Assembly: GCF_036785885.1 (NCBI RefSeq)
Contig: NC_092329.1
Coordinates: forward strand, 7,316,001-7,380,000
Direction: 5' to 3'
From: Coffea arabica
Taxonomy: Eukaryota > Streptophyta > Magnoliopsida > Gentianales > Rubiaceae
DNA length: 64,000 bases
Shown here: piece by piece, positions 35,108 through 64,000 of the stretch
Position numbering within the stretch: position 1 is the stretch's first letter
Layout: each line of letters starts with the position of its first letter
Translations under genes and position numbers: made by a program
The notes under the pieces: model-generated
Database searches by the model: none
Told to the model about the DNA's origin: nothing
Seen by the model: only the letters and a program-made list of their open reading frames with translations

Positions 35108-35779
35108 TTATTTATTTATTTATTTTTCTTGGGACAAAGTATCATTTTAGCATTAATTATGGACTTTGAGGTAACCCTCTGGCGTTGGTAACGACTCGAG
35201 CAATGAGCTGTCTTTTTCCCCGTGCAATAAATACGCAAGCATTTAGTTCAAAATAAAAATTCAGCTTCTGCTGCATATTCATTACACCCTTTTGCTACCG
35301 CCTTCATGAAAGATTCCTGCAGGAGACGTAGAAATGAAGAATTTCCAGCATTTTTTTAAACTTTATCTTTGACTGAATTTACCATGTACGGAAGATTATT
35401 ACTATTGAGGAGAAATCACAGCATCAACGGTTAAAAGACGTAAAATTTGCTTTAAAAATTTGATTGAAGTTACCATGTACGGAAGATTATTACTTGGTGA
35501 AACATCGGAGCGTCTTCAAAATGGCACCATTTCATTGGGTATTAGACTGACCCGTCCTAACCCAGGTATTCAGTCTAATGTCACGTCAAAAATTTTTTTT
35601 TTTTTTAATGTCACGTCATTTGGATCCGGAAAAATTATAGCAGCTGAGCCGTCTAAACTTGTGGGGCCAAGTTAGCATAATGAAATCACAAAGTGCAGAA
35701 AATTGAATCGGAGAAAGAGCAAAATAATTGGTTGCTCGATGACGACGTCTGTGGAGATGTGAATGGTGGGTTAAAATTG

Positions 35780-36672
35780 GGGATAATTTCAAAAATCTTC
35801 CGTGAGGTTTCTAACTGTTTCACTCATCTCTCTTTTAAGTTTTAAAAATTAATTAACCTCCCTTGAGATTTATTATCTTGCAACATTTAGGTCCAGTCAA
35901 CAATTAAAAAATGATGTTAGGAGAGAAAAGATAGATATGATTTCACCATTACTCTTCATCTACTAAATTATTTAATTAATTTAATACTAGCCCAAATATT
36001 AAAGAAAACACTAGAATTTGTTGTTAATCATCAGGATTTAAATTACATATGGTATTAAAAATAGTATATCATTTTATATATTTTATTTAATGTAAGATTC
36101 AAATTACTCTTTTTAATTACGAATCTATTGTCAAACATGATCAACAACAAATAATCAAAAAATTTACAATTAAAATATTATAAGGAGTGAACTTTAATAC
36201 CATAAAATCTCAATAACTAATCTTAATATGCTGACAATAATATTTATGATGTTAAAAATTGTTCTCTATAATATTTTAATTACAAATTATTATTATTATT
36301 TATTGTTGATCATGTTTGATAATGGATATATAATTGAAAAGAGTAATTTAATTCTTGTATTGAGTGAAAAATATAAAATGATATATTATTTTTTTGATGA
36401 TAAATATGATTTGATCCCTAATGATAAACAGCAAATTTTAGTATTTTTCTTTAATGTGTGAATTGATATTAAATTAATTAAATAATATAATAGATGATGG
36501 GCAATGATGGAACTATGTTATCTTCTCTCTCCTAATATCACTTTTTAATTATTGGTTTGACCTAAATATTATAAAATAATTAACCTCAAGGGAGGTTAGT
36601 GTAATTTTTAAAATTTTGGAGAAAACCAGTGAAATAATCAGAAATCACAAGGGAGGTTTCCGAAATTATCCC
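35780..36672. mobile_element. Foldback MITE upstream of UGT copy C
   Basis: The 893-bp element starts GGGATAATTTC and ends GAAATTATCCC, and the two halves are imperfect reverse complements over nearly the whole length, centred near 36.23 kb. Imperfect 9-11 bp TTAAAATTG-type flanks suggest a Mutator-like origin. It carries no genes. Transcripts through it would fold into a long hairpin. The mirror copy is at 62437-63329 and a terminal fragment of the same family is at 56191-56278. Confidence 0.75.
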
Positions 36673-37070
36673 TTAAAAAATTGATAGAACCTATAACGTG
36701 CGGAAGATTATAATTTGCTTTAAATAATTGACAGTAGCTACCATGTGAAATATTGTATTTGGATTGTAAATTATTTGAGATAATTTTGTGAAAAAATACT
36801 GTAATATTTTTTTGATGTGATGTATGTGAGATAAAAAAATAATTGAAAAATATGTTGATGATGCAAGCAAATAAGTGTATGTAAATAAGATATAAATAAA
36901 GTGAAATAGAAGTCAATACAAACACATAATTATGTTACACTGCCCTTTCTCGAATATTTGCACTAGCTCTTCATTGGTTTTTTTTTTACTTTACCATCAA
37001 CCCAATTCCCAACTAGTGGCTGCTGTGTGATAACGTACAATTTGTCCACTCAAATCCGCTGGCAAGAAGA

Positions 37071-38737
37071 ATGGGTTCCACTGCTTTACTGGAGAAGAAG
37101 CCTCACGCCGTCTGCATACCAGCTCCAGCTCAAGGCCACATAAACCCCATGCTAAAGCTAGCCAAGCTCCTCCACCAAAAGGGTTTTCATATCACCTTTG
37201 TCAACACAGAATTCAACCACAGGCGCTTGCTTAAATCCAGCGGTCCTGATGCCTTAAAGGGACTGCCTGATTTCCAATTTAAAGCCATCCCTGACGGACT
37301 TCCTCCTTCTGAGGTCGATGCTACCCCAGATATTCCAACCCTTTGTGAATCTTTTGATAGAACTTGCTTAGGTCCCTTCAGGGAGCTACTTGCTGAACTC
37401 AACGATACCTCTTCCTCAGAAGTGCCCCCTGTTTCTTGCATAGTTTCCGATGGAGCAATGACCTTCACTCTAGCAGCTGCTCAAGAACTTGGCATCCCTG
37501 AAGTTCTTCTTTGGACCTCCAGCGCATCTTCCTACTTGCCGTATTTCCAGTTTGACAAGTTTATCGAAAAGGGTATCATGCCACTCAAAGGTACGACTAT
37601 TTTTTGATGAAAAATGTGTGTTCAAAATTTTTCGTGGTCATTTATTCTCTTCTTCCACATATTTTTGGAAACTTTTTCTCAAAAAAGAAAATAGCTTGAA
37701 CATTTAATGCCTCTTCCTAAATGGATGCCCTTGTATGATTCTGATGATACTCGGTGTCGTACATCTTATGCCTTGCAGATGCTAGTTATTTGACAAATGG
37801 ATGTCTAGACACTGTTCTAGATTGGATTCCAGGATTAGAGGGTATACGCTTGAAGGATCTTCCAAGCTTCTTTCGAACCACAAATCCCGATGATTTCATG
37901 TTGAAATTCGTCATGCAAGAAACTCAGAGATCTAGAAAGGCCTCTGCCATCATTATAAACACCTTTCAACAACTGGAACATGATGTATTAGATGAACTTT
38001 CATCTTATCTTCCTCCAATTTACACCATTGGACCACTACACTTGCTAGAGAATCCTGTGTATGGTAAGTCTTTAACAGATTTTCGATCAAATCTCTGGAA
38101 GGAACAGCCAGAATGTCTTGAGTGGCTTGACTCGAAAGATCCAAACTCTGTGGTTTATGTCAACTTTGGAAGCATTGCTGTTATGACACCTGAGCAACTA
38201 GTCGAATTTGCTTGGGGACTTGCTAATAGCAAACAAAACTTTTTGTGGATTTTAAGGCCAGATCTTGTCTCAGGCAGTTCAGCTATTCTGCCAAGTGAGT
38301 TTCTTGAAGAAACCAAAGAAAGAAGCATGTTTGCAGGCTGGTGCCCTCAAGAGAAAGTCCTTACCCATCCTTCTGTTGGCGGATTCTTAACTCATAGTGG
38401 GTGGAATTCCACAATCGAAAGTATTAGTTATGGGGTGCCTATGATCTGCTGGCCCTTTTTTGCCGATCAACAAACTAATTGCTGGCTTTGCTGCACTAAA
38501 TGGGGTATTGGAATGGAGATGGACAATAATGTCAAGAGGGATGAAGTTGAAAGCCTTGTTAGCGAGTTAATGGCGGGAGAGAAGGGTAAGGAAATGAAGA
38601 AAAAAGCCATGGACTGGAAAAAATTGGCAGAAGTGGCTGTGACAGATGCTAACTTGAATCTTGAGAATTTGATTCATCAAGTGCTTCTCAATCCAAGCAT
38701 TCGAGACATCAAGAACCGTGTATCTGTTAGAAAATAA
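37071..38737 (+). CDS. UGT85A: UGT85A-type glucosyltransferase, copy C (7-deoxyloganetin glucosyltransferase-like)
   Basis: Exons 37071-37590 (520 nt) and 37779-38737 (959 nt), with a 188-bp GT-AG phase-1 intron, encode 492 residues. The catalytic His lies in [10 protein letters not shown], Asp in SCIVSDGAM, and the PSPG box starts [15 protein letters not shown]. Compared with A and B the protein runs 11 residues further ([11 protein letters not shown]), because the stop after NPSI is absent. It differs from copy D at one visible residue: Cys here, Tyr in D, in the NG.LDT segment, where A and B also have Tyr. It is the only UGT in the window on the plus strand, because the whole block is inverted. 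The TATA position reads CGAATATTTG rather than a clean TATA, and a foldback MITE lies 0.4 kb upstream. Confidence 0.94.
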
Positions 38738-39557
38738 TTAAACCAAACCTGTATTTTTTTTTAATGATGTTGATGCCATATGTCATCAATGTATTGATTA
38801 GTACAGAAAGTTGTACTGTGGATTTGTAAGGTTGGCCGCGTGGGATTCAATCCCATAAATTTAGTATAGTAGTGGTAATAATAGTTAGCCGCATATGGCT
38901 TATTGGTGCGGTGAAGAATAGTCAATGTCTTTGTCGGTGGCTGTTGTCTTTGTATTGTAGCTGCAGCGTGTTTCATCTATAAGAAATTTTTCATTTGCCT
39001 CGTATATTGTTTTCCTTAATTGTTCCTTTGGATTTATGTTATTGATTTGGGTCCATCAGAATCTAAAGAGTTGTTCTTCGGCTCGTTGAATTTGGACTTG
39101 GTTAGAGTTTTTCTTTTTAATTACTCGTACATGCATGGTTCGCTTTCAAAAATGCTTCTTGAGTTCTTTACTTCTTGTTTAATATTTTTCATTGCCGATC
39201 CGTTGTTTGCTGCAATATTTCTATCATATTTGTTACTGATTGATGAATGTACTTTGGCAGTTTGGAAAATTTACAATCTAATTTGGCCAAAAGATGGCTA
39301 GTTGTGCAATTTTACATAAGAATTTCTCTTTCATCAGATGTTGGAACATGTAAAATTTCAATTTGTCTAACAAGTGACCCTATGCACTTGCCAGAAAAGT
39401 CCATCGAAACAAAGAATTCTTGTGATGCAAATTTTCCCATTTCGCTTCAGTCGAATTAACAATTTTGGGCTCCTATCAAAGAAACGTGCGTTTAGTTTTA
39501 CTTGAATAAATGTGCAACATACGCCCATATGCAGATGAGCTTCTATCTATGTGCGTT
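38738..39557. other. 3' flank of UGT copy C with part of repeat R1
   Basis: No gene. It shares blocks with the 3' flanks of A and B (TCTTGATGTCTCGAA-like DNA, GCAGCAAACAACGGATC on the opposite strand). At about 39497-39557 the reverse complement of R1 appears (CATACGCCCATATGCAGATG), ending where the LINE begins. Confidence 0.55.
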
Positions 39558-41724
39558 GTACATGCTCACGGCCTGATGACTCTGAGGAAATTCTGAATGG
39601 CATCGCAGGATAATTACAACTGAGATGAACTTGCAGCTTACCAAACTTGTCACAGAAAAGGAAGTCAAAGCAGCACTTTTTTCCCCGCATGCTAACAAGC
39701 ACCAGGAGGACCCCACGATATGTCCCCCATCTTCTTTCAAAGATTTTGGTTTATTATGGAGGCAATTCAAAACTTTTTTAGTATTGGCCACATGTTAAAA
39801 GCCTTTAATGAGACATTAATCACCCTCATCCCCAAAATTGATACCCCTGTCAATCTTTCCCACTTCAAGTCCATTAGCCTTTGTAATGTTTGTCTACAAA
39901 GTTATTGTTAATAGACTTAAACCCTTCTTAGGTGGTTATATCAGTCATTCTCAGGCTGCATTTGTCCTCGGGGCAGACAAATTATAGATAACATCATTAT
40001 TGCACATGAGTACATTCACTGGCTCAATAATATGAGGGGGGCAGACAAATTATAGACAACATCATTATTGCACATGAGTACATTCACTGGTTCAATAATA
40101 TGAGGGGAGGTAAAGATGCATCTATGTTTCTTAAGATTAAGATTGATATGTCCAAAGTGTATGATAGGGTTGAATGGAAGTTTTTGTTTGCTGTCATGTG
40201 TAAAATGGGCTTCTGCCCAAGGTGGATTAAATGGATTCGTGGTTGTTTGTCATCCATGTCTTTTAGTTTTAACATTAATGGGAGAAAAACAAGGCTATGT
40301 GTGTCTCACTAGGGGAATTAGACATGAAGATCCTCTATCTCGCTCTCTCTTCCTTTTTTGTGCAGAAGGCCTCTCTCATCTTCTTAAGCAAGCCAATGAG
40401 GATAACAGAATTTCTAGGATCAAAATCTCCAGACAAAGTCCAACAATTTCTCATATCTTTTTTGCTGACGACTCCCTTATGTTTTCCAAAGCCAACACAG
40501 GTGAAGCTGAAGAGATCAAGCGAATTCTCAAGCGCTATGAAAAGGCCTCGGAACAACAAATAAATATTGAGAAATCATCAGTCATATCCTTAGCAAAAAT
40601 ATTTCTCAAACAGAGGCAGAAGCTATCTTGAGACCACTTGGCAATATCCAACTTGTCACTCAAAGCAAATACTAGTGATCCTTGCCTATGGTGATAGGTA
40701 GATCAAAGAATAGTGTCTTCATGTTCATTAAAGAGAAGATGTGCAAAAAGCTACAAAGTTGGAAAGATAAAATGCTGAGTTTTGTAGGTAAAGAGGTATT
40801 ACTCAAATTTGTGGCCCTTGCTCTCCCTTCATATGCAATGTCAGTTTTCAAACTATCTGCTGAACTATGTAAAGAGCTTTACGGGATGATGGCTAAATTC
40901 TGGTGGGGAGGTGATTCTAGAGAAAAGAAAATGCATTGGAAGAGCTGGGCTGATATTTCTGATGTTAAAGGGAAAGGGAGACTTGGTTTCCGGGATATTC
41001 AATGCTTTAACACCGCCTTACTAGCCAAACAAGTTTGGAGAATGCTTACCAATTCAAACTTGTTGGTTAGTAAGATGGTAAAAGGAAGGTATTTCCCCAA
41101 ATCCTCTATTCTTGATGCACAGGTGAAAAATGGAGCTTCGTGGATCTGGCAAAGTCTGCACAGCTCAATTGGGATGCTGGAAAGTGAATTAAGGAAGCAG
41201 GTTGGAAATGGCAACACTATTGCAATTTGGAAATTTGGAAGGTTTGATGGCTCAAAAACAGCAGCTCAGGTAAAATCTCCACACCTAAGCCACACAATTG
41301 TCCATATGACAAAGTCTCGGATTTGATTCATGACTAGAAGTGGAATTCAAACATCATAAACTCCATTTTCTCTGCTGAAGAGGCCAAACTAATCACAGCA
41401 ATCCCACTTAGCTTATTTGGAGGGAATACACTTGGTGCAACAGTGCAAATGGTAAATACACTACCAAAACTAGATATGTAAAAGCCAAGGAAAGAATGGA
41501 AAGGAACAACAAAGGGCTTCTGCAACATGAGAGCACTAGTAAGAATACGCAGAATTCCAGAATTTGGCATCAAGTTTGGGACCTCAACATTAAACACAAG
41601 GTTAATCACTTCCTGTGGAAAATGCCTACACGACATTCTTCCCACCCACGAGAATATATTCCGAAGAACAGGAAAGAAGAACCTTGGTGCAGGAGTTGTG
41701 GAGAAAGTGCAGAAACATTAGAAC
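39558..41724 (+). mobile_element. L1-type LINE, left copy, truncated at both ends
   Basis: The pieces match plant L1 reverse transcriptase: LITLIPKIDTPVNLSHFKSI, a MRGGKDASMFLKIKIDMSKV block, the FFADDS active-site motif, and the downstream MHWKSWADISDVKGKGRLGF region plus the zinc-finger-like WKMPTRHS...WCRSCGES part. Frames are broken and a short block near 39970-40100 is duplicated (ACATCATTATTGCACATGAG twice). The endonuclease is missing (5' truncation, usual for LINEs). Unlike the right copy it lacks the RNase H and 3' end, because it stops 3 bp before the CACTA element. Confidence 0.85.
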
Positions 41725-41727
41725 ACC

Positions 41728-44700
41728 CACTACAGGAAAATAGGCTTTTTGTGACGTTTTCGCTGCGGCACAAGAAGAAAATGCAGCAAATAAAGAGCAC
41801 ATTTCAAATTATGTGGCAAGGTTGATAAAAGGGGCATAATTTTTGTGGCAAAACGACGTAGTTTTAATAAATCCAGAGTAAAGAAAAAGGGAAAAGAAAA
41901 GGGAAAGCGCCTTTCACTTCCAATGTCTCCTTCATTCTCCGCTAATTTCAAAACCCCCCCACTTCTTTCTTCTAAACTCTAAATTCTGATTCCAAATTCC
42001 CAATGAACTTGTCTCGCTTTCTCTCTCTCTCTCTCTCTCTCAAATGGTCAAATCTAATTCCACCTCCTCTATTTTCCACCCAATACGGCCAACGAATATG
42101 CGGCGACCACCTTCATCTTTGAGATACGGAGGAAATCCGGAAGAGTAGACAGATTGATTGCTAATTGGTTTTGACGCCTGAAGCTAGGGTTTTAACGCCA
42201 GGAAGATGGACCTCCTCCATTTTTATTCTCAGCAGTTGAAGTCGATTCCCAATTGCAGTGTTTCTTCCTTGTTGTTGTATCTCTCTTTGTTGCTCTTCTT
42301 CTTTGTCTCTTTCCAATTCTAAAGACTCTATCACATTCTCAAAGGAATATGGTGAGATTTATAGCTAACGATAGTTTTATCTCAATTTTGTGTTTGTTCT
42401 TAGGTTTAATGACTTCTGGCATGATTTTGAGAAGTTAAACAGTTTCAGGTCACTTTGCCAAAAGTGAATAAATTGGTTTTCACTGGCTGGATTTGCTTCT
42501 CCATGTAATTTTGATCATCGGTGAACTAATTGTAGCTTTGAGAGAACTTACCCAACAATTTTGCTAGCTATTCTGGTTCAAAAGCAAGGTAATTAAGCTC
42601 AATTCCTTTGCGATTTTTTTCACTTTATTCATTTATTTTATGGTATAATCAAGAGAATTTATTACATGCCCTTAGTGCTCAGGAGTTTATAGACTTTTGC
42701 GGTTATTTTTATGTATTTTTTGTAATTCTTTAAAATATTTTTAATGCGACTTAAGGGGAGATAATAGGAGTTTACTCTCGTTTTAAAGAGTCCAGCCCAT
42801 ATTGCAGATGGACAATGGAATCGCCTGAGAAACTCAATACAGTCGTTGTCTTGAAACAACGAGATAGCAGCCGTTGGCAGAAGGTACATTTGAAGCTTAA
42901 GTGCACTCCATTCTCTAGTTTATATATTTGTCCGATTATCATGCTACTGATATTAGGTGTTATTTGTAATTCTGTCATAAATGCCTGTAAACAACTCTCC
43001 CTGTTCTTGGAGACTGGGGACACACAAATAGTTTAGGAGAAATCCCAACTTTGGAGCATAATCATTTCAAGAAAGTGGAAAATGGCAATCAAGTATTGCT
43101 GTTTTAGATCAAGTAATTCCTGATTTAATCCTTAAAAATGGTTACAAGGCATACAAACTACTTAAAAATGCACTTGCTTATGGTAGTAAGAATTTTTGCG
43201 TCACACTATGATATGGTATGATAATATTGTAACACAAAATTGTTAAGCATGATTGCCTCTACGGGTATAATATTAGGCCCACCTTCTCTCATTATTAACT
43301 TGGTGTTACTACTTGTAGCAACTTTGGTTAATTCTTTTACGAGTTCCAGTTTCTTATATGTGTGTGTTATTCTGCCCAGATTAATACATGCAATGGCTTC
43401 TAGTTGGCTATATCCCAAATAAGCTTATAAACCCAGGATGCAGACTGAAGACTGGACTGGCTGGTAAATTATTGCTTATTTTTTCATAGATGGTTTGACA
43501 AAATTTTTGAAGTTTTATAACAAGAAATTCACTGTCTTATGTCTTCATTTGCAAGCTACTTCCCAAATAAGCTTATAAACTCAAAATTTTTGAAGTTTTT
43601 ATGCAAAATGGTCTGTTTTCTTACGAGAAAGTTTGGGGATCTATTTAGTAGAAGACAAGTGCTAAACTTCTCCTTCAATTATGTCCCTTTAACCCTGTGA
43701 TCTATATCAATTCATGCGCTCAATATATCTATAAGGGTACCACTACTAATGGTAGGAAGGTTGTGCTCAATAAGCTTGGGTTGTCCAGATGCAAGGTAAT
43801 TAAGCTTATATGATCTGCAATTCATTTTTATTTATATGCACCTTTTATCATATTTATGGAGAATGATTAAAAGTTGTTCAATGTTGGCAGTTGTTAGGTT
43901 CTAAATGTGGAATTTTATGGTGTTTTTGCCTTCTGCTGTTTTGGAATTTAAAGTGATTAAGGTGAAATAATGGGGATCTAGCATCAAATTTTGAATAGCA
44001 TTCAACTTTAATTCCAAAGTTTCTGATTTCGGCTAATTTTCTAATTCCCAGCAATAGTGTACTTCATATCATTAGCTTTTGACGATGCATTTATTATCTC
44101 ATGGATTTTGGCTTCATTTTTTTGCTATTTATACTTTATTTTGAGTGAAATTTTCAGAAAAAAAGGTTTTTTTTATTTAAATAATGGCTACTCTGCCATT
44201 CATTGTCATAGACCCATTGTCATGCCTACTCTGCCATTCATGGTCACAGAGTTACTTCCTAAAGCAGCTCAAATTCCGTTAGTCCATTGGTCATGCTCCC
44301 ATATCCTGAACCCCTAATGCCAGTGTGTGTTGGTTACCCCATCTCCAACGATGCAGTTATTACTAGTTAGACCCATATTATTGCTTGTTGATATTAATTT
44401 CATGTCATTCGCCATTATTGATGCCCATGATACCACCACCAAGCTGATTTGACATCATCGTTTCATGTATGATTTTTTGAACAGAACTCTGGGAATCATT
44501 TGCATCTGTGTCACTAGAAAGTGCTGGCTGCTGCAGTGCAATGTTCGGTGAACTAGCAGAATTCGTGTGCATTCCAGTCGGTAAGCCACCAAGTGAAGTC
44601 TGTGGAGGATCGTTAGATGATGATGCCGTTGGAGACTGGAAAGGAGAAGGATTGAGTTGCGGTTGTAGTAAGGTACTCAAGGAACACTAGGAGATGGCAT

Positions 44701-45414
44701 CTGAACACCATTTCCTCCGTAAGGACCATTTGTGCTACTCTTCGGGTTTTTGCTGTCTCGAGTTCATTGAGTTTTGATGACGCAGCCCAGTTATATATGG
44801 CACTAGTAGAGGAAGTTGCAGGAGCCGAATTCAGTGGATTATTTACATTTGCCATGCCATTTCTGGAAGGAAGTTGCAATTATTACGAAAAATGTTTCAA
44901 TGTGGCCTAACCATATTGAAACGTGATGACTTTTGCAAAATTGGTTGGAATTAGGAACTACTTGTACCTTTTAGAATTAGGTTATGATGATGAATTTGGA
45001 AATTTGCAGTGATTGTTTCCATTTAGATAGTGAATTGAATTACTTACTTGAAAGGGAAATGTACTACAAGCATGAAAAATAATTCATAAAATATGCAAAA
45101 AGTGTAAATCACTGCAGTGCATCTGTTTATTGAAGGAGACTATTTAATATTTGTGACGCAATTTTTGTGCCGCGTGACTATTTGCGGCACAATTTTTGTG
45201 CCGCTTGCAATTTTTGTGGCACTAATATGTGTCACTAATTGAGCCGCAAATGCTTGCGACACATTTAAACAGAGTGTTATTTTCTTTTGTAACGGCTACT
45301 TTTGAGGCACAAAAGACTTGTGCCGCAAAAGCGCCGCAAATACTTTTTTGCGGCGCTTTTTGGGCTTTTTGTGGCACATTCTTGGCGTCGCAACAAGCCA
45401 TATTTCTTGTAGTA
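41728..45414 (+). mobile_element. CACTA (En/Spm) transposon with captured gene fragments
   Basis: The left end CACTACAGGAAAAT and right end ATTTCTTGTAGTA are inverted CACTA termini, with the last base changed on the right. Both subterminal regions carry many copies of GCGGCACAA/TTGTGCCGC-type motifs, as CACTA elements do; they are clearest at 45150-45400. No transposase was recognised, so it is non-autonomous. The interior includes a UTR-like stretch with a CT run at about 42019-42041, exon-like pieces of unknown origin (42818-42882, 43660-43796) and a SEUSS-like fragment. No matching 3-bp target duplication is seen: the left flank is LINE and the right flank is UGT F DNA. Confidence 0.8.
44405..44880 (-). 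pseudogene. SEU: Captured fragment of a SEUSS-type transcriptional co-regulator
   Basis: The minus strand encodes MQLPSRNGMANVNN with APATSSTSAI, then in another frame STNGPYGGNGVQMPSPSVP, and then NPSPFQSPTASSSNDPPQTS, SSPNIALQQPALSSDTDAND and SQSSVQKIIHETMMSNQLGG. These blocks in this order are characteristic of the region after the LIM-binding domain in plant SEUSS proteins, which partner LEUNIG in repression. A frameshift and a stop interrupt it, and the LIM-binding domain and both ends of the gene are missing. It lies wholly inside the CACTA element. Confidence 0.78.
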
Positions 45415-45830
45415 AGCATGAGAACAATTTGAATACATTCACTTTAACGTGTCTAGTGTCTTGGATTGAGAAGCACTTGATTAATCACATTCTCAAGATT
45501 GAAGTAAGACTTTTGCGTAGCTGCTTCCACCAATCTTTTCCACTTCAAGGCCTTTCTCTTCATCTTCTTGCCTTTTTCTCCTACCATTAACTCTGTAACA
45601 AGCCTTTCAACATCATCCCTCTTAACATTATTGTCTATCTCCAATCCAGTGCCCCGTTTTGTGCAGCAAAATCAGCAATTAGTTTGTTGGTCAGCTGAAA
45701 AACGGCCAACAGATCTTAGGCAGCCCATAGCTAATGCTTTCAATCGTGGAATTCCATCCACAATGAGTTAAGAGTCCTCTGACAAAAGGGTGCTTAAGAA
45801 CTTTCTCTTGAGAGCACCAGCTTGCAAACA

Positions 45831-47953
45831 TATTGGGATTCAAGTGCGAAACAAATAACTACTAAAACATCAATTACACAACAACTTGATGACAAACAAA
45901 TCACAAATATGAAAGATAACGACATACAATATTTAACATAATCGATTCCATCATGGAACCTACGACCACAGAGAGAGCACCCGCTTTTTATTATGAGAGA
46001 AAAATCTTATATAAGAATACAATTTGAATCCAACCCCAACCCTTATATACTATTTCTCATCTCTCAAGAACCCTCTCTCATTTTATGTTTAAAGCTACTT
46101 GTCGCCCTAATGTACCTATTATGTGCCAATATATAGTATGACAACCCACCTATTTATAGAAAATATTATTTGGCTAAAAATCAAATAATAACAGAAAATC
46201 AATACTAATTCCTAAACTTGTACAAAATAGAAGATAACTTCTAAATTCTAAACAAAATAGAAAATTTTTTGACTACTATTTCAAATAAATAAAATCAATT
46301 ACTCCCTCCATCCCATTTATTTAGTCATGTTTAGGGAATTTAACTTTTTAAAAATAATGATTTGATTGTGATATTTGCACTTCTCTTTTCAATTTTACCC
46401 CAATAAATTCAAAATTTAAATTTGAATGGTAACATGCATATAATTAGAAAGAAGGGTTATATTAGAAAGAGAGATTAAAAGGTATTTTGACTTTTCTAAC
46501 ATGACAACTTTTTTTGAAACATATTAAAATGGAAAGTTTAACACTTTCAATGGGACGGGGGAGTAGAAAACTAGTTACTTCCACATAAATTAAGAAATAT
46601 ATCTAAAAAAATTAAATCAATTTCCTACAAATCTCCATATTGACGAATATTTCTTTTAGGAACCATTTGCCTTCAATTACCAAATACAAATCCGAATTAA
46701 TATAGTTCTGACATCCAATTGATTCAATCGGCAAGTGAACATGTGTAGTTACCCTAAATCCAATCTCTCGTTGACTCGCGAGAAGGTATCTCAATTCACT
46801 ATCTTCCTTCGTAGGATTTCTTCACACCAGCATTTGCAACTCGAAATCCCCTTCTATGAGTTATATTTCTAACCATTGAGATAATCAAGTGATAAAAGCA
46901 TCATATTTCTTCATATTCTTAGGATTGTCTCATCAAGTGTGATTTTCAAGACTCCCCCTATAACAAACTTGTAACTATCAAAGTTTTCTTGCATTTGAAA
47001 ATTAGATCCCTTTATTTCTTTAGAACACATGTCACACCACCTAAATAATATAATCCAAATCCAAAAATCATCTAAGATGAAGTACCAACCGTTAGAATTG
47101 CGAGAATGTCTCCATCGATTCATGTGCAAAATTAACATTGAATTTCACCTTTTTTTTTACTCTTGAATAACCTGTCTAAATTCACCATCAAGTATTTTCA
47201 TGCTTTTCAACTTTTCATCATTCACCACCAATGCTTTTTGTCAAATCCTTAAAACAAGGATACCACTTATTAAATTGTTCAATTGGCAATAGTCACCAAT
47301 CCACTTGATCACAATAATCAAACATGATCCAACCATGAACCCCGCTTTGATACTAGTTTGTTGGGATTCAAGTGTTTGTGAGCAACTCAATCTTACAATC
47401 AAGTTCTGATACCACTTGCTGGGATCCAAACGCGAACAAACAACTATTAAAATATCAAGTACATAACAATTTAATGACAAACAAGCCACAAACATGAAAG
47501 ATAAACGACACGCAATATTTAACATAGTTCGATTCTATTATTGAGTCTACGTCTACAGAGAGATCATCCGTTCTTTATTATGACAGGAAAATCCTATATA
47601 AAAATACAACTTAAACCCAATTCCAACTCTTGTATAGCATCTCTCATCTCTCAAGAACCTTTTCTCATCCTATGTATAAGGTTACATGTCGCCCTTGTAT
47701 TCTCATTATGTGTCACTTTATAGTATGTCAATCCACCTATTAATAGAAAGTATTATTTAATCAAAAATCAAATAACAACAGGAAATCAATACTAATTTCT
47801 AAACTTATACAGAATAGGAAATAACTTATAAATTCTAAATAAAATAGAAAATTTCTTAACTACTATTTTAAGTAATTAAAACTAATTAGAAAATTAGTTA
47901 CTTACACACAAATTAAGAAACCTATCTAAAAGAATTAAATCAATTTTCTAACA
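45831..47953 (-). mobile_element. Small non-autonomous LTR element in UGT pseudogene F
   Basis: Same family, orientation and UGT insertion site as 26176-28037, with a clean AAACA target duplication (45826-45830 and 47954-47958). The primer site on the minus strand is a better tRNA-Met match (TGGTATCAGAAC). It is about 1.86 kb once the nested Stowaway MITE is subtracted, and carries no genes. The shared site shows that one insertion was copied by duplication of the locus. Confidence 0.85.
46302..46563. mobile_element. Stowaway-type MITE nested in the small LTR element
   Basis: 262 bp between TA dinucleotides, with ends CTCCCTCCATCCC and GGGACGGGGGAG. The same site in the E copy is empty (TCAATTAGAAAAC), so it inserted after E and F separated. 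Confidence 0.9.
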
Positions 47954-51100: not shown

Positions 51101-51119
51101 TTGCTCCCCCCTTCAACAA

Positions 51120-52350
51120 TCCTAGTCCCTAGGATTCAATTCTGGAAATTGCACTCGAATAAAGGACCAATCTTCCCAAGTGGAGTCATCCTTATTCAAA
51201 TTCTCCCATTCAATCAACACTTGCTCAACCTCTTGACCCCTCCTGTAAATGTCTCTCCTGTCCAGAATGGCCTTAGGAGCTACCTTGAACTCTCCTTCCG
51301 CAGTTGCCTCCGGAGGTGTAGGATGTATTTGGCTCCCATTGACAGATTTCTTGAGAAGAGAAACATGGAACACAGGGTGCACTGAGCATCCATCTGGCAA
51401 CTTCAGTCTATAGGCCACGGATCCCACCTTCTGTTCAACCTGATAGGGTCCGTAATACCTGGCAGATAATTTTAGGTTCCTTCTCAAAGCCACAGAGGAT
51501 TGTCTATACGGTTGTAGCTTCAGGTACACCCAATCTCCCTCCTCAAATGTCCTATCTGTCCTGCCCTTATCTGTCAGTTGCTTCATTCTATTCTGTGCTT
51601 GCAACAAGTTCTCCCTGAGTAACGCATTCCAGTTCACTCTTTCGCTGGACCAATCCTCCACTGCAGCAACTAGTGTCTGTGTAGGGGATAACGTGAGTTG
51701 TGAAGGTTTGTATCCATAGAGGGCCTGAAAGGGAGTCATGGTCAGGCTAGTGTGGTAGTTGGTGTTGTACCACTATTCAGCTGTAGGCAGCCACTTCTTC
51801 CACTTGCCAGGTTGTTGCATGCACATACTCCTAAGGTAAGTCTCCACACATCTATTGACTCGCTCTGTCTGGCCATCTGATTGAGGGTGGTATGCAGTAG
51901 AGAAGCTGAGTTTAGTGCCTAGCAATTTGAAGAGCTCCTGCCAGAAAATGCTGGTAAACACCCTGTCCCTATCCGACACAATGCGAGAAGGCAGTTCATG
52001 AAGCTTAAAGATTTGATCAAAGAAAACTTCTGCAATACCCTTAGCCGTATAATGAGACGTTATAGGGATGAAATGTGCATACTTAGTGAGCCTGTCTACT
52101 ACCACATAGATGGCATCACTGCCTAAGGACTTAGGCAATCCTTCTATAAAATCCATTGAAATTTGTTGCCAAGCTTGATCTGGGACAGCTAGGGGCTGTA
52201 GGAGTCCAGGATATGGACAATTTTCAGACTTGCTCCTACTGCAAATATCACACCTCTGCACAAAAACCTCTATATCCTTCCTCATGTTAGGCCAGTAAAA
52301 GAAGGGCTTCATCCTCTGATAGGTACCCTGAATCCCTGAGTGTCCACCCC
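51120..52350 (-). pseudogene. Chromovirus integrase and chromodomain region (fossil)
   Basis: Integrase signatures are visible: CDICSRSKSE of the zinc-binding end, SMDFIEGLPKS and IVSDRDRVFTSIFWQ of the catalytic core, then a C-terminal part with VLIEWENLNKDDSTWEDW, which resembles a chromodomain. This places the element among the chromoviruses. Confidence 0.88.
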
Positions 52351-52379
52351 AACAGGTATCATGAAAACACGAAATTAAA

Positions 52380-53850
52380 TTCTACCTGAGGTCAGATCCT
52401 GATCCTACCAAAATTCTGTCCTTATGCCGTATGACTCCCCTTTGGTAAGTGTACTCAGGATGAGAGTTGGTACCTGTGGTCAAAGCCATCATCAGTTCCT
52501 TGATACTGTCATCACCAACATAGCTATCGCCCACTAGAGAGAGCCACTGAGGTGCTACTGCTGACACAGCATGCACTTCCGCTACCTCTTGTCCTTCCCT
52601 TCCGCTACCTCTTATCCTTCCCTTCCTTCCATTCCCTCTGTTCTCCTAGAGAGAGCATCAGCCACCACATTCTCCTTTCCTCGTTTATATTGAATCTCAT
52701 AATCCATCCCCATCAGCTTGGCCAACCATTTTTGTTGTAAGGGAGTTGTGATTTTCTGTTCCAGTAAGTACTTCAAGCTCTCATGATCAGTTTTAATCAC
52801 AAAGTGCCCTCCCAACAGATAATGTTTCCATTTTTGAACCGCAGTCATTAAGGACAGCAGCTCCTTCTCATATATGGATAAAGTCTGGCTTTTCCTCCCC
52901 AATACCTGACTCATATAGGCTATGACCCTACCTTGCTGCATCAAAACAGCTCCAATGGCAGCTTGGCTTGCATCAATTTCCAAAACAAAGGACTTAGTAA
53001 AGTCTGGTAGAGCCAAGACTGGTGTAGTACTCATTGCTTCCTTTAACTTCTGGAAGGCTTGATCCGCTTCTTTACCCCAAGAGAACTGCCCCTTTTTAAG
53101 CAGCTCCGTAAGAGGCTTGGCGATCACCCCGTAACTCTTCACGAATCTCCTATAGTAGCCTGTCAATCCCAGGAAGCCTCTGAGGCCCTTAACATGGGTA
53201 GGAGCAGGCCAAGAGAGCATAGCTTCAACCTTTGCTGGATCAGCCTTCACACCTGTCTCAGTGACTATGTGGCCTAAATACTCTACTTGATTCTGGCCAA
53301 ATGCGCACTTGGACAATTTAGCATAGAGGGAGTGTGTTCTAAGGGTGTTCAACACCAAGGACAGGTGATGTAAATGAGTGGTAAGGTCAGGGCTGTAAAT
53401 CAGAATGTCATCAAAGAATACCAGAACAAATTTTCTGATATAAGGTTCAAAAACAGAGTTCATTAAAGCTTGGAAAGTTGCAGGTGCGTTTGTTAAACCA
53501 AAAGGCATAACAAGGAACTCATACAAACCAGAATGTGTTCGAAAAGCTGTTTTTGGAATGTCATCCGGAGCCATTCGGATCTGGTGATATCCTGATCTGA
53601 GGTCTATCTTGGAAAATATTTTGGCTCCATGTAACTCATCAAGGAGGTCATCTATGATAGGAATGGGAAATTTATCTTTGATGGTCAAGCTGTTCAACTG
53701 TCTATAGTCAATGCAAAGTCTCCAACTGCCATCTTTCTTTTTTACCAGAAGAGGTGGAGAGGCAAAAGGGCTATGACTTTTATGAATGATACCAGAGGTT
53801 AACATTTCCTGGACTTGTTTTTCTATCTCTGTCTTTTGCGAATGGGGTAC
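52380..53850 (-). pseudogene. Chromovirus reverse transcriptase and RNase H region (fossil)
   Basis: Typical Ty3/gypsy blocks: [44 protein letters not shown] (active site), [14 protein letters not shown], then RNase H blocks such as [20 protein letters not shown] and VADALSRR. Confidence 0.93.
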
Positions 53851-53999
53851 CTATAGGGGGCAATTTTGAAGGGTCTAGCCTCAGTTTTAAGAGGTATTTT
53901 ATGGTCATGAGTTCTAGATGGGGGCAATGTTATAGGATCAGAAAAAATGTCCTCATATGCAGCCAGCAATTCAGTAAGAGAGTTAGGCACACTAGTCAC

Positions 54000-55700
54000 C
54001 TAACAGTTGTGAACCTTCACCATGCAGGATTGCTGCAGAGCTTTCCTGACCCTGTGCCTAATGGCTTTGGCCGCATTCTCTCCTCTTCTAAGATTCACCT
54101 GTGCAGTCTCAGAGTTCCCCTGCAATAGGACCTGTTCTCCCTCCCTGTCAAAGGTTATCTGCAATGCTCTGAAATCAAATGTTAGGGGACTGTATTTCTT
54201 CATCCAATCTACTCCAATTATAATGTCATAAGGTTCAAGTTCCAAAACAAATACATCATGCTCAAATTGGTGGCCCTGGATCTCCCACTTCATCTGAGGC
54301 ACCCACTGATCGCAATGCAAGACCTTCCCATCTGCAATTTTGACTTTGAAAGGTCTATGTCTCCTGATTTTCTCAGGATATAGTTGCGCAACCGTAGGTC
54401 GGATAAAGCAGTTAGTACTCCCTCCATCCACCAAAACCGATAGCTGCTGGTTACCATACAGTCCTTGCATTTTGATGGTGCTAGAAGATAACTCACCTGA
54501 GACTGAGTGTAGAGCCAGTACTACTGCCTGATCTGCAATGGTACCCACGTACTCTATGACCTCTTCCTCTTCTACTTTATCTGCCTCCTCCTCCTCAACT
54601 AGCAGCATGTGAAGCTCCTTGTTCTTGCAAGTGTGTCCAGGGGAGAACTTCTCCCCACATTTAAAACACAAATGGTTGTCCTTCCTATACTGAAACTCTG
54701 TAGGCGAGATTTTCTTAAAAACAGGCTGTGAGTCACTCCTTTTCTTAGTTTCTTCACTATTATTTGACTGCATCCTCCTGTTCCCGTTGGCACCAGTGTG
54801 TCCCCCACTGAAACTATATGGCAGCGGACCCCTGTGAGCTACTCTATTGTTTTTGGAGAGTGCTTCCAAGAGATGTTCCTGCCACCTAGCCTTCTCAAAA
54901 GCTAGCTGAAGAGAGTCTGGTTTGTGCATTTTCACAGCAGCCTTGATTTCATTCTTCAGTCCACCCAAGAAGCAAGAAACGTAATAGGACTCGGACAGAT
55001 TGGGGACTTTGGCCATCACTAATGCTCTTAGTTCTTCAAATCTCTCCTGGTAAGCAACTACAGATGCGGTTTGCTGCAGCTTGTTGAACTCCTCGATGGC
55101 ATCATCCTCTCCCAGTTCTCTGAATCTTCTACAGAGTTCCTCCTTGAATTCATTCCAACCAACTCCTCCCCTGTCTTTTTTGAAGTTCTGGTACCATAGG
55201 TCAGCTCGCCCTTCCAAATGCAGTTCTGCCATATCCACCAGGCTCTCTTCCGAGACCCTACAAAGGTGGAAGAATTTCTCACACTTCCTCACCCAATCTC
55301 TAGGGTTGCTCCCATCAAATTGAGGAAATTCCAGCTTAGGAATAGCCACTGTGTAGTGATTCCTTGCTGTTACTTCACCACCAGTTCCCCCTTCACCCAC
55401 TCTCCCAACGTGAGTCCCACTGTTATGATTAGGACTTCCCAAAATTCCCCTATCACCATGCACACCTCTTGCAAATGCACTGAACTGATTATTCATATCA
55501 GCCATGAATGTCTTCATTTCCAGTCTATTGGCTTCCAATAATGCCTTCACATCTTGGAAGGTATCTCCCACCTTTTCCTCCAGTGCCGCCGTAGAGTCCA
55601 AAACGGTCTGGATCCGTGCATCCTGTTTCCGCAGCTGTTCTTCGAAGCTCTTCATCCTCGTCCCTTCGGCCATGGCTAGTTGCAGCTGATAGTCCAAGGA
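54000..55700 (-). pseudogene. Chromovirus gag and protease region (fossil)
   Basis: A long frame with a coiled N-terminal part, the retrotransposon gag segment (FPQFDGSNPRDWVRKCEKFF), a CCHC zinc knuckle (CFKCGEKFSPGHTC) and an aspartic protease motif (VLVDGGSTNCFI) followed by IIIGVDWM. It lies directly after the primer-binding site. Confidence 0.9.
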
Positions 55701-55719
55701 CCACCAGCTCTGATACCAC

Positions 55720-56030
55720 TGTTGTGGTTAACCTTCTGAGCAAGGAGATATTAGGAGAAATCAGAAAAGGAATAGAACAGATCTGAGAGGGAAGAGAGAT
55801 ACAGAGAGAGAATGAAGGAAATGAGAAAATGTGATCTGAATGAATTAAGAATGAATCTATCTCAAAACTGCTGAACCAACACATCCTTCGGTCATTTATA
55901 CAGGACTGAGCTCATTTGCATGCAAATGTCCGGCTAACAGAAAAGATGCCTTCCAACTAACTCCTCCAGCTAAGCCGCCAGCCTGGCATAACTGACTAAT
56001 GATCTGCTTGGATTCTGCCAGGACACAACA
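55720..56030 (-). repeat. 5' LTR of the chromovirus
   Basis: 311 bp, nearly identical to 50790-51100. On the minus strand the primer-binding site follows it, next to the gag start. Confidence 0.92.
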
Positions 56031-56403: not shown

Positions 56404-59400
56404 GGAGGATTTGTGCACTCAAGGTAAAGGCGTGAAGTTTTTGACAATGTTCATAATGCACCTTAATGTTCTGAAGGTAAAGGGTTTAGTATTTTTTACT
56501 CTGTCAAAAGTTATTCTTTTATATCATCAACATCTTTGATACTTACACATACATGTACTTACTAGCTGGCAACTGCCAGATAATCACTTTGTGCAGCCAT
56601 AGAGGTCCACACAGGGAAGCTATTCTTCCAAGGTTAGTGGCGAATTTTGCCAAGCCATGACTACATGTGTTGATTTCTCGCTTAACAAAGGAGAAAATAC
56701 AATGCCAAAAAGACCTACTTAATGCCCTGATATCTCTTAGGATAATGTTGATGTCAGACAGGTCCTCACTCCTATGGTTTAACTTCTCAACCAGAACGTT
56801 GCAGTCAGAAAGTATCAAGATGGACGTCCAATTTTCCTTCAATGCTTTGAGCAAGGTAGTTCTGATAGCATGAGCTTCTAGGGTTGTAGCCTCTCCTTTT
56901 AATGAGGTTGGGATGGACCATGTAGAGATTAGACTACCCTTATTGTCTTTGGCCGCTATACCAATACCAAACTTGTCTCTTTGCTGGTCCACTGCTGTAT
57001 CTATGTAGATGATAGACGAGTGTTATTGTTGGACCACCGCAATCTTGTCATGACTATCCAGCTGAGTATTGTTTTCTTGTTTGTCACAAGTGTTTAGGGG
57101 GTTTGCCTCTTTAAACTCAAGCCAATCTGTCATGGCCTATTGGGAGATTCGATAACCATCTTGGTTGATCAGGTTAAAGTTCCAATTATTCCTTACCTTC
57201 CATATATGCCAAAGTTCGTTAGCTGTCATTTCAATGTGAGCTTTGCCATCCACCATTTCTCTAGCCTATTGTAAGCTCTCCCACCACGTTCAAAAGCTCC
57301 CTTCCAATTGTTCTAGACCATCCCATTTGATAGGGAAAGTTTTCCAAATCTGCTCGCTTGTCCTACAAAAGGAGAGGAGGTACCGTTCTAATGTTTCTGC
57401 ACTTTCTCCACAACTCCTGCACCAAGGTTCTTCTTTCCTGTTCTTCGGAATATATTCTCGTGGGTGGGAAGAATGTCGTGTAGGCATTTTCCACAGGAAG
57501 TGATTAACCTTGTGTTTAATGTTGAGGTCCCAAACTTGATGCCAAATTCTGGAATTCTGCGTATTCTTACTAGTGCTCTCATGTTGCAGAAGCCCTTTGT
57601 TGTTCCTTTCCATTCTTTCCTTGGCTTTTACATATCTAGTTTTGGTAGTGTATTTACCATTTGCACTGTTGCACCAAGTGTATTCCCTCCAAATAAGCTA
57701 AGTGGGATTGCTGTGATTAGTTTGGCCTCTTCAGCAGAGAAAATGGAGTTTATGATGTTTGAATTCCACTTCTAGTCATGAATCAAATCCGAGACTTTGT
57801 CATATGGACAATTGTGTGGCTTAGGTGTGGAGATTTTACCTGAGCTGCTATTTTTGAGCCATCAAACCTTCCAAATTTCCAAATTGCAATAGTGTTGCCA
57901 TTTCCAACCTGCTTCCTTAATTCACTTTCCAGCATCCCAATTGAGCTGTGCAGACTTTGCCAGATCCACGAAGCTCCATTTTTCACCTGTGCATCAAGAA
58001 TAGAGGATTTGGGGAAATACCTTCCTTTTACCATCTTACTAACCAACAAGTTTGAATTGGTAAGCATTCTCCAAACTTGTTTGGCTAGTAAGGCGGTGTT
58101 AAAGCATTGAATATCCCGGAAACCAAGTCTCCCTTTCCCTTTAACATCAGAAATATCAGCCCAGCTCTTCCAATGCATTTTCTTTTCTCTAGAATCACCT
58201 CCCCACCAGAATTTAGCCATCATCCCGTAAAGCTCTTTACATAGTTCAGCAGATAGTTTGAAAACTGACATTGCATATGAAGGGAGAGCAAGGGCCACAA
58301 ATTTGAGTAATACCTCTTTACCTACAAAACTCAGCATTTTATCTTTCCAACTTTGTAGCTTTTTGCACATCTTCTCTTTAATGAACATGAAGACACTATT
58401 CTTTGATCTACCTATCACCATAGGCAAGGATCACTAGTATTTGCTTTGAGTGACAAGTTGGATATTGCCAAGTGGTCTCAAGATAGCTTCTGCCTCTGTT
58501 TGAGAAATATTTTTGCTAAGGATATGACTGATGATTTCTCAATATTTATTTGTTGTTCCGAGGCCTTTTCATAGCGCTTGAGAATTCGCTTGATCTCTTC
58601 AGCTTCACCTGTGTTGGCTTTGGAAAACATAAGGGAGTCGTCAGCAAAAAAGATATGAGAAATTGTTGGACTTTGTCTGGAGATTTTGATCCTAGAAATT
58701 CTGTTATCCTCATTGGCTTGCTTAAGAAGATGAGAGAGGCCTTCTGCACAAAAAAGGAAGAGAGAGCGAGATAGAGGATCTTCATGTCTAATTCCCCTAG
58801 TGAGACACACATAGCCTTGTTTTTCTCCCATTAATGTTAAAACTAAAAGACATGGATGACAAACAACCACGAATCCATTTAATCCACCTTGGGCAGAAGC
58901 CCATTTTACACATGACAGCAAACAAAAACTTCCATTCAACCCTATCATACACTTTGGACATATCAATCTTAATCTTAAGAAACATAGATGCATCTTTACC
59001 TCCCCTCATATTATTGAACCAGTGAATGTACTCATGTGCAATAATGATGTTGTCTATAATTTGTCTGCCCCCCTCATATTATTGAGCCAGTGAATGTACT
59101 CATGTGCAATAATGATGTTATCTATAATTTGTCTGCCCCGAGGACAAATGCAGCCTGAGAATGACTGATATAACCACCTAAGAAGGGTTTAAGTCTATTA
59201 ACAATAACTTTGTAGACAAACATTACAAAGGCTAATGGACTTGAAGTGGGAAAGATTGACAGGGGTATCAATTTTGGGGATGAGAGTGATTAATGTCTCA
59301 TTAAAGGCTTTTAACATGTGGCCAATACTAAAAAAGTTTTGAATTGCCTCCATAATAAACCAAAATCTTTGAAAGAAGATGGGGGACATATCGTGGGGTC

Positions 59401-60371: not shown

Positions 60372-62038
60372 TTATTTTCTAACAGATACACGGTTCTTGA
60401 TGTCTCGAATGCTTGGATTGAGAAGCACTTGATGAATCAAATTCTCAAGATTCAAGTTAGCATCTGTCACAGCCACTTCTGCCAATTTTTTCCAGTCCAT
60501 GGCTTTTTTCTTCATTTCCTTACCCTTCTCTCCCGCCATTAACTCGCTAACAAGGCTTTCAACTTCATCCCTCTTGACATTATTGTCCATCTCCATTCCA
60601 ATACCCCATTTAGTGCAGCAAAGCCAGCAATTAGTTTGTTGATCGGCAAAAAAGGGCCAGCAGATCATAGGCACCCCATAACTAATACTTTCGATTGTGG
60701 AATTCCACCCACTATGAGTTAAGAATCCGCCAACAGAAGGATGGGTAAGGACTTTCTCTTGAGGGCACCAGCCTGCAAACATGCTTCTTTCTTTGGTTTC
60801 TTCAAGAAACTCACTTGGCAGAATAGCTGAACTGCCTGAGACAAGATCTGGCCTTAAAATCCACAAAAAGTTTTGTTTGCTATTAGCAAGTCCCCAAGCA
60901 AATTCGACTAGTTGCTCAGGTGTCATAACAGCAATGCTTCCAAAGTTGACATAAACCACAGAGTTTGGATCTTTCGAGTCAAGCCACTCAAGACATTCTG
61001 GCTGTTCCTTCCAGAGATTTGATCGAAAATCTGTTAAAGACTTACCATACACAGGATTCTCTAGCAAGTGTAGTGGTCCAATGGTGTAAATTGGAGGAAG
61101 ATAAGATGAAAGTTCATCTAATACATCATGTTCCAGTTGTTGAAAGGTGTTTATAATGATGGCAGAGGCCTTTCTAGATCTCTGAGTTTCTTGCATGACG
61201 AATTTCAACATGAAATCATCGGGATTTGTGGTTCGAAAGAAGCTTGGAAGATCCTTCAAGCGTATACCCTCTAATCCTGGAATCCAATCTAGAACAGTGT
61301 CTAGATATCCATTTGTCAAATAACTAGCATCTGCAAGGCATAAGATGTACGACACCGAGTATCATCAGAATCATACAAGGGCATCCATTTAGGAAGAGGC
61401 ATTAAATGTTCAAGCTATTTTCTTTTTTGAGAAAAAGTTTCCAAAAATATGTGGAAGAAGAGAATAAATGACCACGAAAAATTTTGAACACACATTTTTC
61501 ATCAAAAAATAGTCGTACCTTTGAGTGGCATGATACCCTTTTCGATAAACTTGTCAAACTGGAAATACGGCAAGTAGGAAGATGCGCTGGAGGTCCAAAG
61601 AAGAACTTCAGGGATGCCAAGTTCTTGAGCAGCTGCTAGAGTGAAGGTCATTGCTCCATCGGAAACTATGCAAGAAACAGGGGGCACTTCTGAGGAAGAG
61701 GTATCGTTGAGTTCAGCAAGTAGCTCCCTGAAGGGACCTAAGCAAGTTCTATCAAAAGATTCACAAAGGGTTGGAATATCTGGGGTAGCATCGACCTCAG
61801 AAGGAGGAAGTCCGTCAGGGATGGCTTTAAATTGGAAATCAGGCAGTCCCTTTAAGGCATCAGGACCGCTGGATTTAAGCAAGCGCCTGTGGTTGAATTC
61901 TGTGTTGACAAAGGTGATATGAAAACCCTTTTGGTGGAGGAGCTTGGCTAGCTTTAGCATGGGGTTTATGTGGCCTTGAGCTGGAGCTGGTATGCAGACG
62001 GCGTGAGGCTTCTTCTCCAGTAAAGCAGTGGAACCCAT
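60372..62038 (-). CDS. UGT85A: UGT85A-type glucosyltransferase, copy D (7-deoxyloganetin glucosyltransferase-like)
   Basis: Exons 62038-61519 (520 nt) and 61330-60372 (959 nt) encode 492 residues, identical by eye to copy C except Tyr for Cys in NGYLDT. His and Asp catalytic residues, the PSPG box with [15 protein letters not shown] and the 11-residue C-terminal extension are as in C. Its orientation agrees with A, E, B and F, so D is likely the ancestral position and C the inverted copy. The same foldback MITE lies upstream. If the inverted duplication proves artefactual, C and D are one gene. Confidence 0.94.
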
Positions 62039-62436
62039 TCTTCTTGCCAGCGGATTTGAGTGGACAAATTGTACGTTATCACACAGCAGCCACTAGTTGG
62101 GAATTGGGTTGATGGTAAAGTAAAAAAAAAACCAATGAAGAGCTAGTGCAAATATTCGAGAAAGGGCAGTGTAACATAATTATGTGTTTGTATTGACTTC
62201 TATTTCACTTTATTTATATCTTATTTACATACACTTATTTGCTTGCATCATCAACATATTTTTCAATTATTTTTTTATCTCACATACATCACATCAAAAA
62301 AATATTACAGTATTTTTTCACAAAATTATCTCAAATAATTTACAATCCAAATACAATATTTCACATGGTAGCTACTGTCAATTATTTAAAGCAAATTATA
62401 ATCTTCCGCACGTTATAGGTTCTATCAATTTTTTAA

Positions 62437-63329
62437 GGGATAATTTCGGAAACCTCCCTTGTGATTTCTGATTATTTCACTGGTTTTCTCCAAAATTTTA
62501 AAAATTACACTAACCTCCCTTGAGGTTAATTATTTTATAATATTTAGGTCAAACCAATAATTAAAAAGTGATATTAGGAGAGAGAAGATAACATAGTTCC
62601 ATCATTGCCCATCATCTATTATATTATTTAATTAATTTAATATCAATTCACACATTAAAGAAAAATACTAAAATTTGCTGTTTATCATTAGGGATCAAAT
62701 CATATTTATCATCAAAAAAATAATATATCATTTTATATTTTTCACTCAATACAAGAATTAAATTACTCTTTTCAATTATATATCCATTATCAAACATGAT
62801 CAACAATAAATAATAATAATAATTTGTAATTAAAATATTATAGAGAACAATTTTTAACATCATAAATATTATTGTCAGCATATTAAGATTAGTTATTGAG
62901 ATTTTATGGTATTAAAGTTCACTCCTTATAATATTTTAATTGTAAATTTTTTGATTATTTGTTGTTGATCATGTTTGACAATAGATTCGTAATTAAAAAG
63001 AGTAATTTGAATCTTACATTAAATAAAATATATAAAATGATATACTATTTTTAATACCATATGTAATTTAAATCCTGATGATTAACAACAAATTCTAGTG
63101 TTTTCTTTAATATTTGGGCTAGTATTAAATTAATTAAATAATTTAGTAGATGAAGAGTAATGGTGAAATCATATCTATCTTTTCTCTCCTAACATCATTT
63201 TTTAATTGTTGACTGGACCTAAATGTTGCAAGATAATAAATCTCAAGGGAGGTTAATTAATTTTTAAAACTTAAAAGAGAGATGAGTGAAACAGTTAGAA
63301 ACCTCACGGAAGATTTTTGAAATTATCCC
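62437..63329. mobile_element. Foldback MITE upstream of UGT copy D
   Basis: Mirror copy of 35780-36672 with GGGATAATTTC and GAAATTATCCC ends. It lies about 0.4 kb from the copy D start codon. 62039-62436 is UGT D 5' flank, and 63330-64000 is upstream DNA shared with C and F; no gene is present in either. Confidence 0.75.
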
Positions 63330-64000
63330 CAATTTTAACCCACCATTCACATCTCCACAGACGTCGTCATCGAGCAACCAATTATTTTGCTCTTTCTCCG
63401 ATTCAATTTTCTGCACTTTGTGATTTCATTATGCTAACTTGGCCCCACAAGTTTAGACGGCTCAGCTGCTATAATTTTTCCGGATCCAAATGACGTGACA
63501 TTAAAAAAAAAAAAAATTTTGACGTGACATTAGACTGAATACCTGGGTTAGGACGGGTCAGTCTAATACCCAATGAAATGGTGCCATTTTGAAGACGCTC
63601 CGATGTTTCACCAAGTAATAATCTTCCGTACATGGTAACTTCAATCAAATTTTTAAAGCAAATTTTACGTCTTTTAACCGTTGATGCTGTGATTTCTCCT
63701 CAATAGTAATAATCTTCCGTACATGGTAAATTCAGTCAAAGATAAAGTTTAAAAAAATGCTGGAAATTCTTCATTTCTACGTCTCCTGCAGGAATCTTTC
63801 ATGAAGGCGGTAGCAAAAGGGTGTAATGAATATGCAGCAGAAGCTGAATTTTTATTTTGAACTAAATGCTTGCGTATTTATTGCACGGGGAAAAAGACAG
63901 CTCATTGCTCGAGTCGTTACCAACGCCAGAGGGTTACCTCAAAGTCCATAATTAATGCTAAAATGATACTTTGTCCCAAGAAAAATAAATAAATAAATAA

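Follow-up and report, generated by a model that had tools for sequence, protein, structure and literature searches.

A CACTA element and the probable origin of an inverted UGT85-like gene duplication in Coffea arabica by alternative transposition

How does a plant enzyme gene come to be present twice, in opposite orientations, within one gene array? Unequal crossing-over, which gives direct repeats, is the usual explanation for enzyme genes arranged in tandem arrays. The question is raised by a 64,000-nucleotide stretch of Coffea arabica DNA (C20:7316001-7380000, contig NC_092329.1; the window, numbered 1-64,000, with positions above 64000 denoting flanking DNA in the same numbering), in which two near-identical inverted arms, each carrying an open UGT85-like gene, lie in a UGT gene array. 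Unequal crossing-over was rejected for this pair because of the orientation. The junctions of the duplication were found to involve a transposon of the CACTA type, which is common in plants, and an alternative, sister-chromatid transposition of this element probably produced the inverted copy.

The original prediction, made from the letters alone, described inverted arms of at least 6.6 kb, and self-BLAST of the window agrees with it: positions 35108-41724 align to 64000-57385 on the minus strand over 6617 columns with 3 mismatches and 1 gap, the single 1-bp length difference expected within the window being located at 35588/63521. The inner borders were placed correctly, but 35108 and 64000 merely mirrored the end of the window. 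With flanking DNA added, the arms extend over 34787-41724 (arm 1, minus strand) and 57385-64320 (arm 2, plus strand, running 320 bp beyond the window end), with 6938 columns, 11 mismatches, 2 gaps, 99.81% identity and a bit score of 12,739, which gives an arm length of about 6.94 kb and a duplicated flank in inverted orientation. As predicted, an arm holds a foldback repeat resembling a miniature inverted-repeat transposable element (MITE; 35780-36672, strand unassigned, upstream of the arm 1 UGT gene, with its mirror copy at 62437-63329), a two-exon UGT gene and part of a long interspersed nuclear element (LINE)-like reverse-transcriptase repeat. Between the arms, the 15.7 kb spacer contains the CACTA element, a Ty3-type retrotransposon and a UGT array unit whose exons are decayed or partial.

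The polarity of the duplication was read from a comparison with the contig C19. In genome-wide searches, which covered 1,197,963,845 bases on 131 contigs, repeat and gene matches often fall on the contig pairs C19/C20, C3/C4, C9/C10 and C15/C16, and C19 was taken as the homeolog of C20. In the same genome, a translated exon from C2:680300-682400 matches 2eg5, a xanthosine methyltransferase of C. canephora, over 135 residues (E 1e-85). C19 aligns on the plus strand to 56769-64067 in three main pieces (95.4, 96.3 and 90.0%), arm 2 being colinear with C19:6015064-6022005. Besides the two arms, the C19 counterpart alone matches the non-LINE part of the arm at that level, and the fetched C19 interval contains one copy only, which has the same place and orientation as arm 2. 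The LINE-like repeat (56490-59066, plus strand) is continuous across the inner edge of arm 2 and ends at 41727 in arm 1, where the reverse transcriptase match of the LINE copy is under the Pfam cut-off (23.5 vs 29.6 bits). Similarly, a MITE of about 340 bp with CTCCCTCCGT ends of the Stowaway type is present in full next to arm 2 and truncated at the outer border of arm 1. Because the single C19 copy has the orientation of arm 2, and because the LINE and the MITE are uncut at arm 2 and cut at arm 1, the alignments identify arm 1 as the derived copy and arm 2 as its source, in the ancestral place. On either side of the insertion, C19 and C20 are colinear (in joined coordinates, 24045-24252 corresponds to 34568-34781 and 25626-26567 to 45413-46360). 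The spacer is not inverted relative to C19: the plus-strand alignments of 45413-46360, 46461-48794 and 56769-59064, the last of which crosses the inner edge of arm 2, follow one another in the same order.

At the inner end of arm 1 stands the CACTA transposon (41728-45413, plus strand), 3.7 kb long, with the left end CACTACAGG and the right end CTTGTAGT, the final T being common to element and target. Its terminal inverted repeats start with CACTA (left, CACTACAGGAAAATAGGC; right end reversed, ACTACAAGAAATATGGC, with the last base or bases missing). Five further long copies of the family, with 97-99% identity, are located on C19, C3 (three copies) and C11, and two of the five have exact 3-bp flank repeats (AGT and CGA). 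At the duplication, the flanks of the element are unlike, ACC at the left and AAG or TAA at the right, as the model predicts, and they come from two loci, the LINE at the left and the UGT array at the right. As a separate observation, the CACTA copy at C3:28950874 has a left flank similar to this LINE family and a truncated right end (CTTGTA), and a further irregular event of a CACTA element in a LINE may have taken place there.

The inner ends of the two arms differ by three bases. In arm 1, the junction reads TTAGAAC-ACC-CACTACAGG, the triplet ACC (41725-41727, plus strand) adjoining the left end of the element, while arm 2 reversed reads TTAGAAC-GGT-ACC-TCC, with GGT at 57382-57384 (read on the minus strand) followed by ACC. 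Ten of the ten other LINE copies examined (the C19 ortholog and nine more) read AAC-ACC without GGT. Hence, ACC is LINE sequence, to which the CACTA element is directly attached as it would be following an ordinary insertion, and 3 bp have been added in arm 2 at the same position. Reverse-complemented, ACC gives GGT, and inverted-complement scars are a feature of plant transposon excision. We infer from these bases that the GGT of arm 2 is an excision scar; a chance 3-bp insertion at exactly that base is improbable, with no formal probability claimed for what is a single event.

At its other end, the element abuts TAAGCATGAG (45413-45422, plus strand), part of a UGT array unit, so that CTTGTAGT continues into AAGCATGAG, at a place where C19 and two C20 units read uninterrupted AATAAGCTAAGCATGAG. 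The right terminus is TAGTG in three of the five other CACTA copies, TAGT in one and shorter in the last. The outer end of arm 1 meets the array at a repair junction (34782-34792, plus strand), where the microhomology amounts to about 4-6 bp. Donor and product both read ACAGAT here, and the array side has ACGGAT in unit 1 and ACAGGT in C19. Between this junction and the target site, 1,373 bp of ancestral sequence (C19:6009253-6010625) are missing. Two C20 array units retain this sequence, with an insert in one case, and here arm 1 and the CACTA element stand in its place.

The observed arm polarity, CACTA ends, LINE triplet, 3-bp difference, target site, microhomology and sequence loss probably have one common cause, an alternative transposition of the CACTA element. 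Three hallmarks of such a reaction are present, with a transposon terminus at the duplication junction together with the donor flank, an inverted flank and a footprint-like GGT, if this triplet is indeed a footprint. In the proposed course of events, the element would have inserted in the LINE beside the arm 2 UGT gene, at the triplet ACC. A cut would then have released its right terminus for joining to a target in the same array, at a distance of 12 kb (5 kb in C19), the left terminus staying on a copy of the neighbouring DNA, as when the transposase pairs ends from sister chromatids. The cut donor site would have been sealed with the footprint GGTACC, and the attached flank, re-copied or broken 6.94 kb out, would have been linked through microhomology to the left side of the broken target, 1.37 kb being lost. 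The outcome would be an inverted duplication that has a CACTA element at the junction and adds another open UGT85-like gene. The junctions would be compatible with the use of sister chromatids, and either re-replication or bridge breakage may have supplied the flank.

The arms show 13 differences, nine in 34793-35097 (the outer 311 bp) and four across the other 6.6 kb, an outer excess that is strong relative to length (Fisher P 2.8e-9, counting substitutions only). A test normalised by C19 divergence (P 0.03) was discarded because it depends on a stretch that is unalignable to C19, and polarity based on C19 was withdrawn for the outer differences since most of 34787-35107 is unalignable to C19 (about 41% mismatch, window by window). 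The outer differences were polarised instead by nine MITE copies and by array paralogs. Arm 1 appears changed at 34810 and 34827, where all nine MITE copies have the arm 2 state, and at 35035, 35042 and 35097, with one of three paralogs matching arm 1 at 35097. Positions 34793 and 34818 lean to a change in arm 2 (arm 1 state in 7 of 9 MITE copies at each), and 34943 and 34999 are unpolarised. The inner differences, polarised by C19, are changes in arm 1 at 35588 and 37803 and in arm 2 at 39824 and 41259.

Over the inner 6.6 kb, arm 1 differs from arm 2 by 3 substitutions in 6,616 positions and from C19 by 191 in 6,323. PMC11018527 places the split of the progenitors at 4-6 million years ago and the polyploidy at 350,000-610,000 years. 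If the 4-6 million-year split and equal rates hold, the inner part postdates the polyploidy; a much older age would follow from the 8 substitutions in the outer 320 bp. The clustering in the outer 311 bp may reflect gene conversion of the remainder or error-prone repair: either the inner part would have been homogenised, or the outer part would carry repair errors. The changes seemingly present on both arms mildly favour conversion, and the 99% match of the CACTA element to another copy mildly favours a young event. Hence, of the very recent gene doubling suggested at first, the doubling stands, arm 1 being a derived insertion in a backbone colinear with C19 and both gene copies being open, and the recency is uncertain.

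Several observations weigh against alternative transposition. The right end of the element is without the last base or bases of the usual TAGTG, and its joining is not textbook; one other copy shows the same loss. The flanking triplets are imperfect in three of the five other CACTA copies. The copy at C19:41278928 is also preceded by ACC, which was taken as coincidence; it had prompted the alternative that ACC belongs to the CACTA element, which was dropped because the LINE copies show ACC to be LINE sequence. A transposase gene was not detected within the element, which has no open reading frame of at least 150 aa and 16 overlapping frames of 60-109 aa that were not Pfam-searched. The element is probably non-autonomous, and a transposase would be needed in trans. 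The clustering of the arm differences is not predicted by the model and a second process is needed. Finally, neither the reciprocal product nor the intermediate allele, with the CACTA element in arm 2, was seen.

Other routes to the same structure were weighed against these points. A break in the array unit could have been patched by a templated filler, consisting of the CACTA element and 6.9 kb of flank copied from the arm 2 locus, the arm 2 element being excised normally at a later time. The microhomology and the loss of 1.37 kb at the outer end would suit such a repair, and in rice, both fillers and deletions have been recorded at sites of excision (PMC4423477). However, the rice fillers given there measure 1-123 bp, against 6.9 kb here, the copied block would have to end by chance at the right terminus of the element, and two events would be required where one is enough, which leaves this explanation unlikely. 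It is less probable still that a duplication including the CACTA element arose earlier by another route and that a transposon-linked deletion later trimmed arm 1 to the right end of the element. A one-sided deletion of 2,479 bp from a transposon end is known in rice (PMC4423477), but the prior duplication would stay unexplained and the deletion would come in addition; moreover, the array unit begins at the first base to the right of the element, 45413 onward matching C19, with no LINE remnant. A further candidate, a CACTA element already at the target with an adjacent break, was dropped because the LINE copies show ACC to be LINE sequence.

The near identity of the arms could also arise in assembly, from two haplotypes, as the original prediction had considered, or a fold-back read joined inversely. 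The genome examined is very probably the assembly of the di-haploid C. arabica line ET-39, described in PMC11018527 as a HiFi assembly of 1,198 Mb in 132 scaffolds, made with hifiasm, with a contig N50 of 30 Mb. If so, joined haplotypes are unlikely because the source is di-haploid. In addition, the flanks are unlike on all sides, the backbone is colinear, the arms differ at 13 positions, transposon and repair signatures are present at the junctions at base level and 264 kb contain no Ns, making an artefact highly improbable. An inversion of the spacer by staggered breaks, a mechanism set out in PMC8225341, yields two inverted arms around a spacer. Such an inversion is contradicted by the spacer, which is colinear with C19 and not inverted, unless C19 itself is inverted, and it is hardly to be credited at this locus. 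Alternative transposition by the CACTA element is hence retained as the probable explanation.

Both UGT copies are open and each encodes 492 aa. The arm 1 gene (37071-38737, plus strand) has exons at 37071-37590 and 37779-38737, and the arm 2 gene (60372-62038, minus strand) also has two exons; an earlier choice of splice donor, which gave 486 aa and placed the change at residue 176, was replaced by the later donor at 37591. The exon 2 reading frame matches PF00201 (UDPGT domain; E 3.7e-30), and the closest solved structures are 2pq6 (E 1.4e-188) and then the cyanohydrin beta-glucosyltransferase 7zer (E 7.4e-130). The structure 2pq6 is that of UGT85H2, and the coffee genes are called UGT85-like. 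The sole protein difference is at residue 182, which is Cys in arm 1 and Tyr in arm 2 and C19. Since 2pq6 has Cys at the aligned position, the change from Tyr to Cys need not be damaging. About 2.3 kb of upstream DNA is kept in both copies.

The arm 1 gene had been predicted to be the sole plus-strand UGT in a minus-strand array. This is the case inside the window and not beyond it, where three more plus-strand UGT genes lie at 72.8-74.6, 88.8-90.6 and 114.8-116.5 kb. To the right of the window (about 72.8-147.9 kb), the array switches strand, with these three plus-strand two-exon genes (72.8-116.5 kb) followed by two minus-strand ones (137.7-147.9 kb). Elsewhere in the window, a 3.65-kb direct pair (18032-21678 and 22451-26099, 98% identity) interrupts another UGT unit, and its flanks (17686-18031 and 26100-26645) match 45413-46301 almost without break. 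The Ty3-type retrotransposon of the spacer (50790-56030, minus strand) has long terminal repeats of 311 bp with 1 difference and is flanked by CCATA on both sides; it has no match in the corresponding C19 stretch.

At this locus, the junctions point to abnormal CACTA movement as the maker of a gene copy in one natural allele, the ancestral state of which survives on the sister subgenome. The donor scar, the element, the target and the repair join are all readable and the duplication can be followed stepwise, making it testable whether CACTA elements, like Ac/Ds in maize, give rise to inverted copies of genes. With genes one residue apart, dosage effects or silencing by the inverted repeat are testable as well. 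A broader proposal, in which CACTA elements undergo sister-chromatid alternative transposition in nature and create inverted copies of metabolic genes, and in which the arms described here were homogenised by gene conversion with the two UGT genes evolving together, can be put forward only tentatively, the balance lying somewhat against it.

Among the matches listed, no title or abstract describes an inverted gene duplication made by a CACTA element through alternative transposition, in a search that covered subscription journals thinly. The closest precedents come from maize, where sister chromatid transposition of Ac/Ds leads to inverted duplications and, when the insertion site is not yet replicated, to composite insertions (PMC3744419 and PMC8225341), and for which a re-replication model was proposed (PMC4270019). 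Of the sequenced composite insertions that were repaired by end joining, two had 3-4 bp of microhomology and one had none (PMC8225341, PMC3744419, PMC4270019). The coffee locus resembles these cases in the transposon at the junction, the inverted donor flank, the nearby target and the microhomology found in some of them, and it differs in that the element is a CACTA, the allele is that of a reference genome rather than cross-selected, a single transposon copy is present and 1.37 kb of the target was lost. As at the coffee locus, the alternative transposition proposed from long reads for VANDAL21 in Arabidopsis met1 (PMC12312487) involves a class II element other than Ac/Ds; in contrast to the coffee locus, the case described there is somatic, with two head-to-head VANDAL elements and no duplicated gene retained. 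Transposon-induced breaks mended with deletions and foreign DNA are shared with the excision repair reported in rice (PMC4423477), from whose fillers of 1-123 bp the coffee block is distinguished by its 6.9 kb and by having a transposon terminus as one of its borders.

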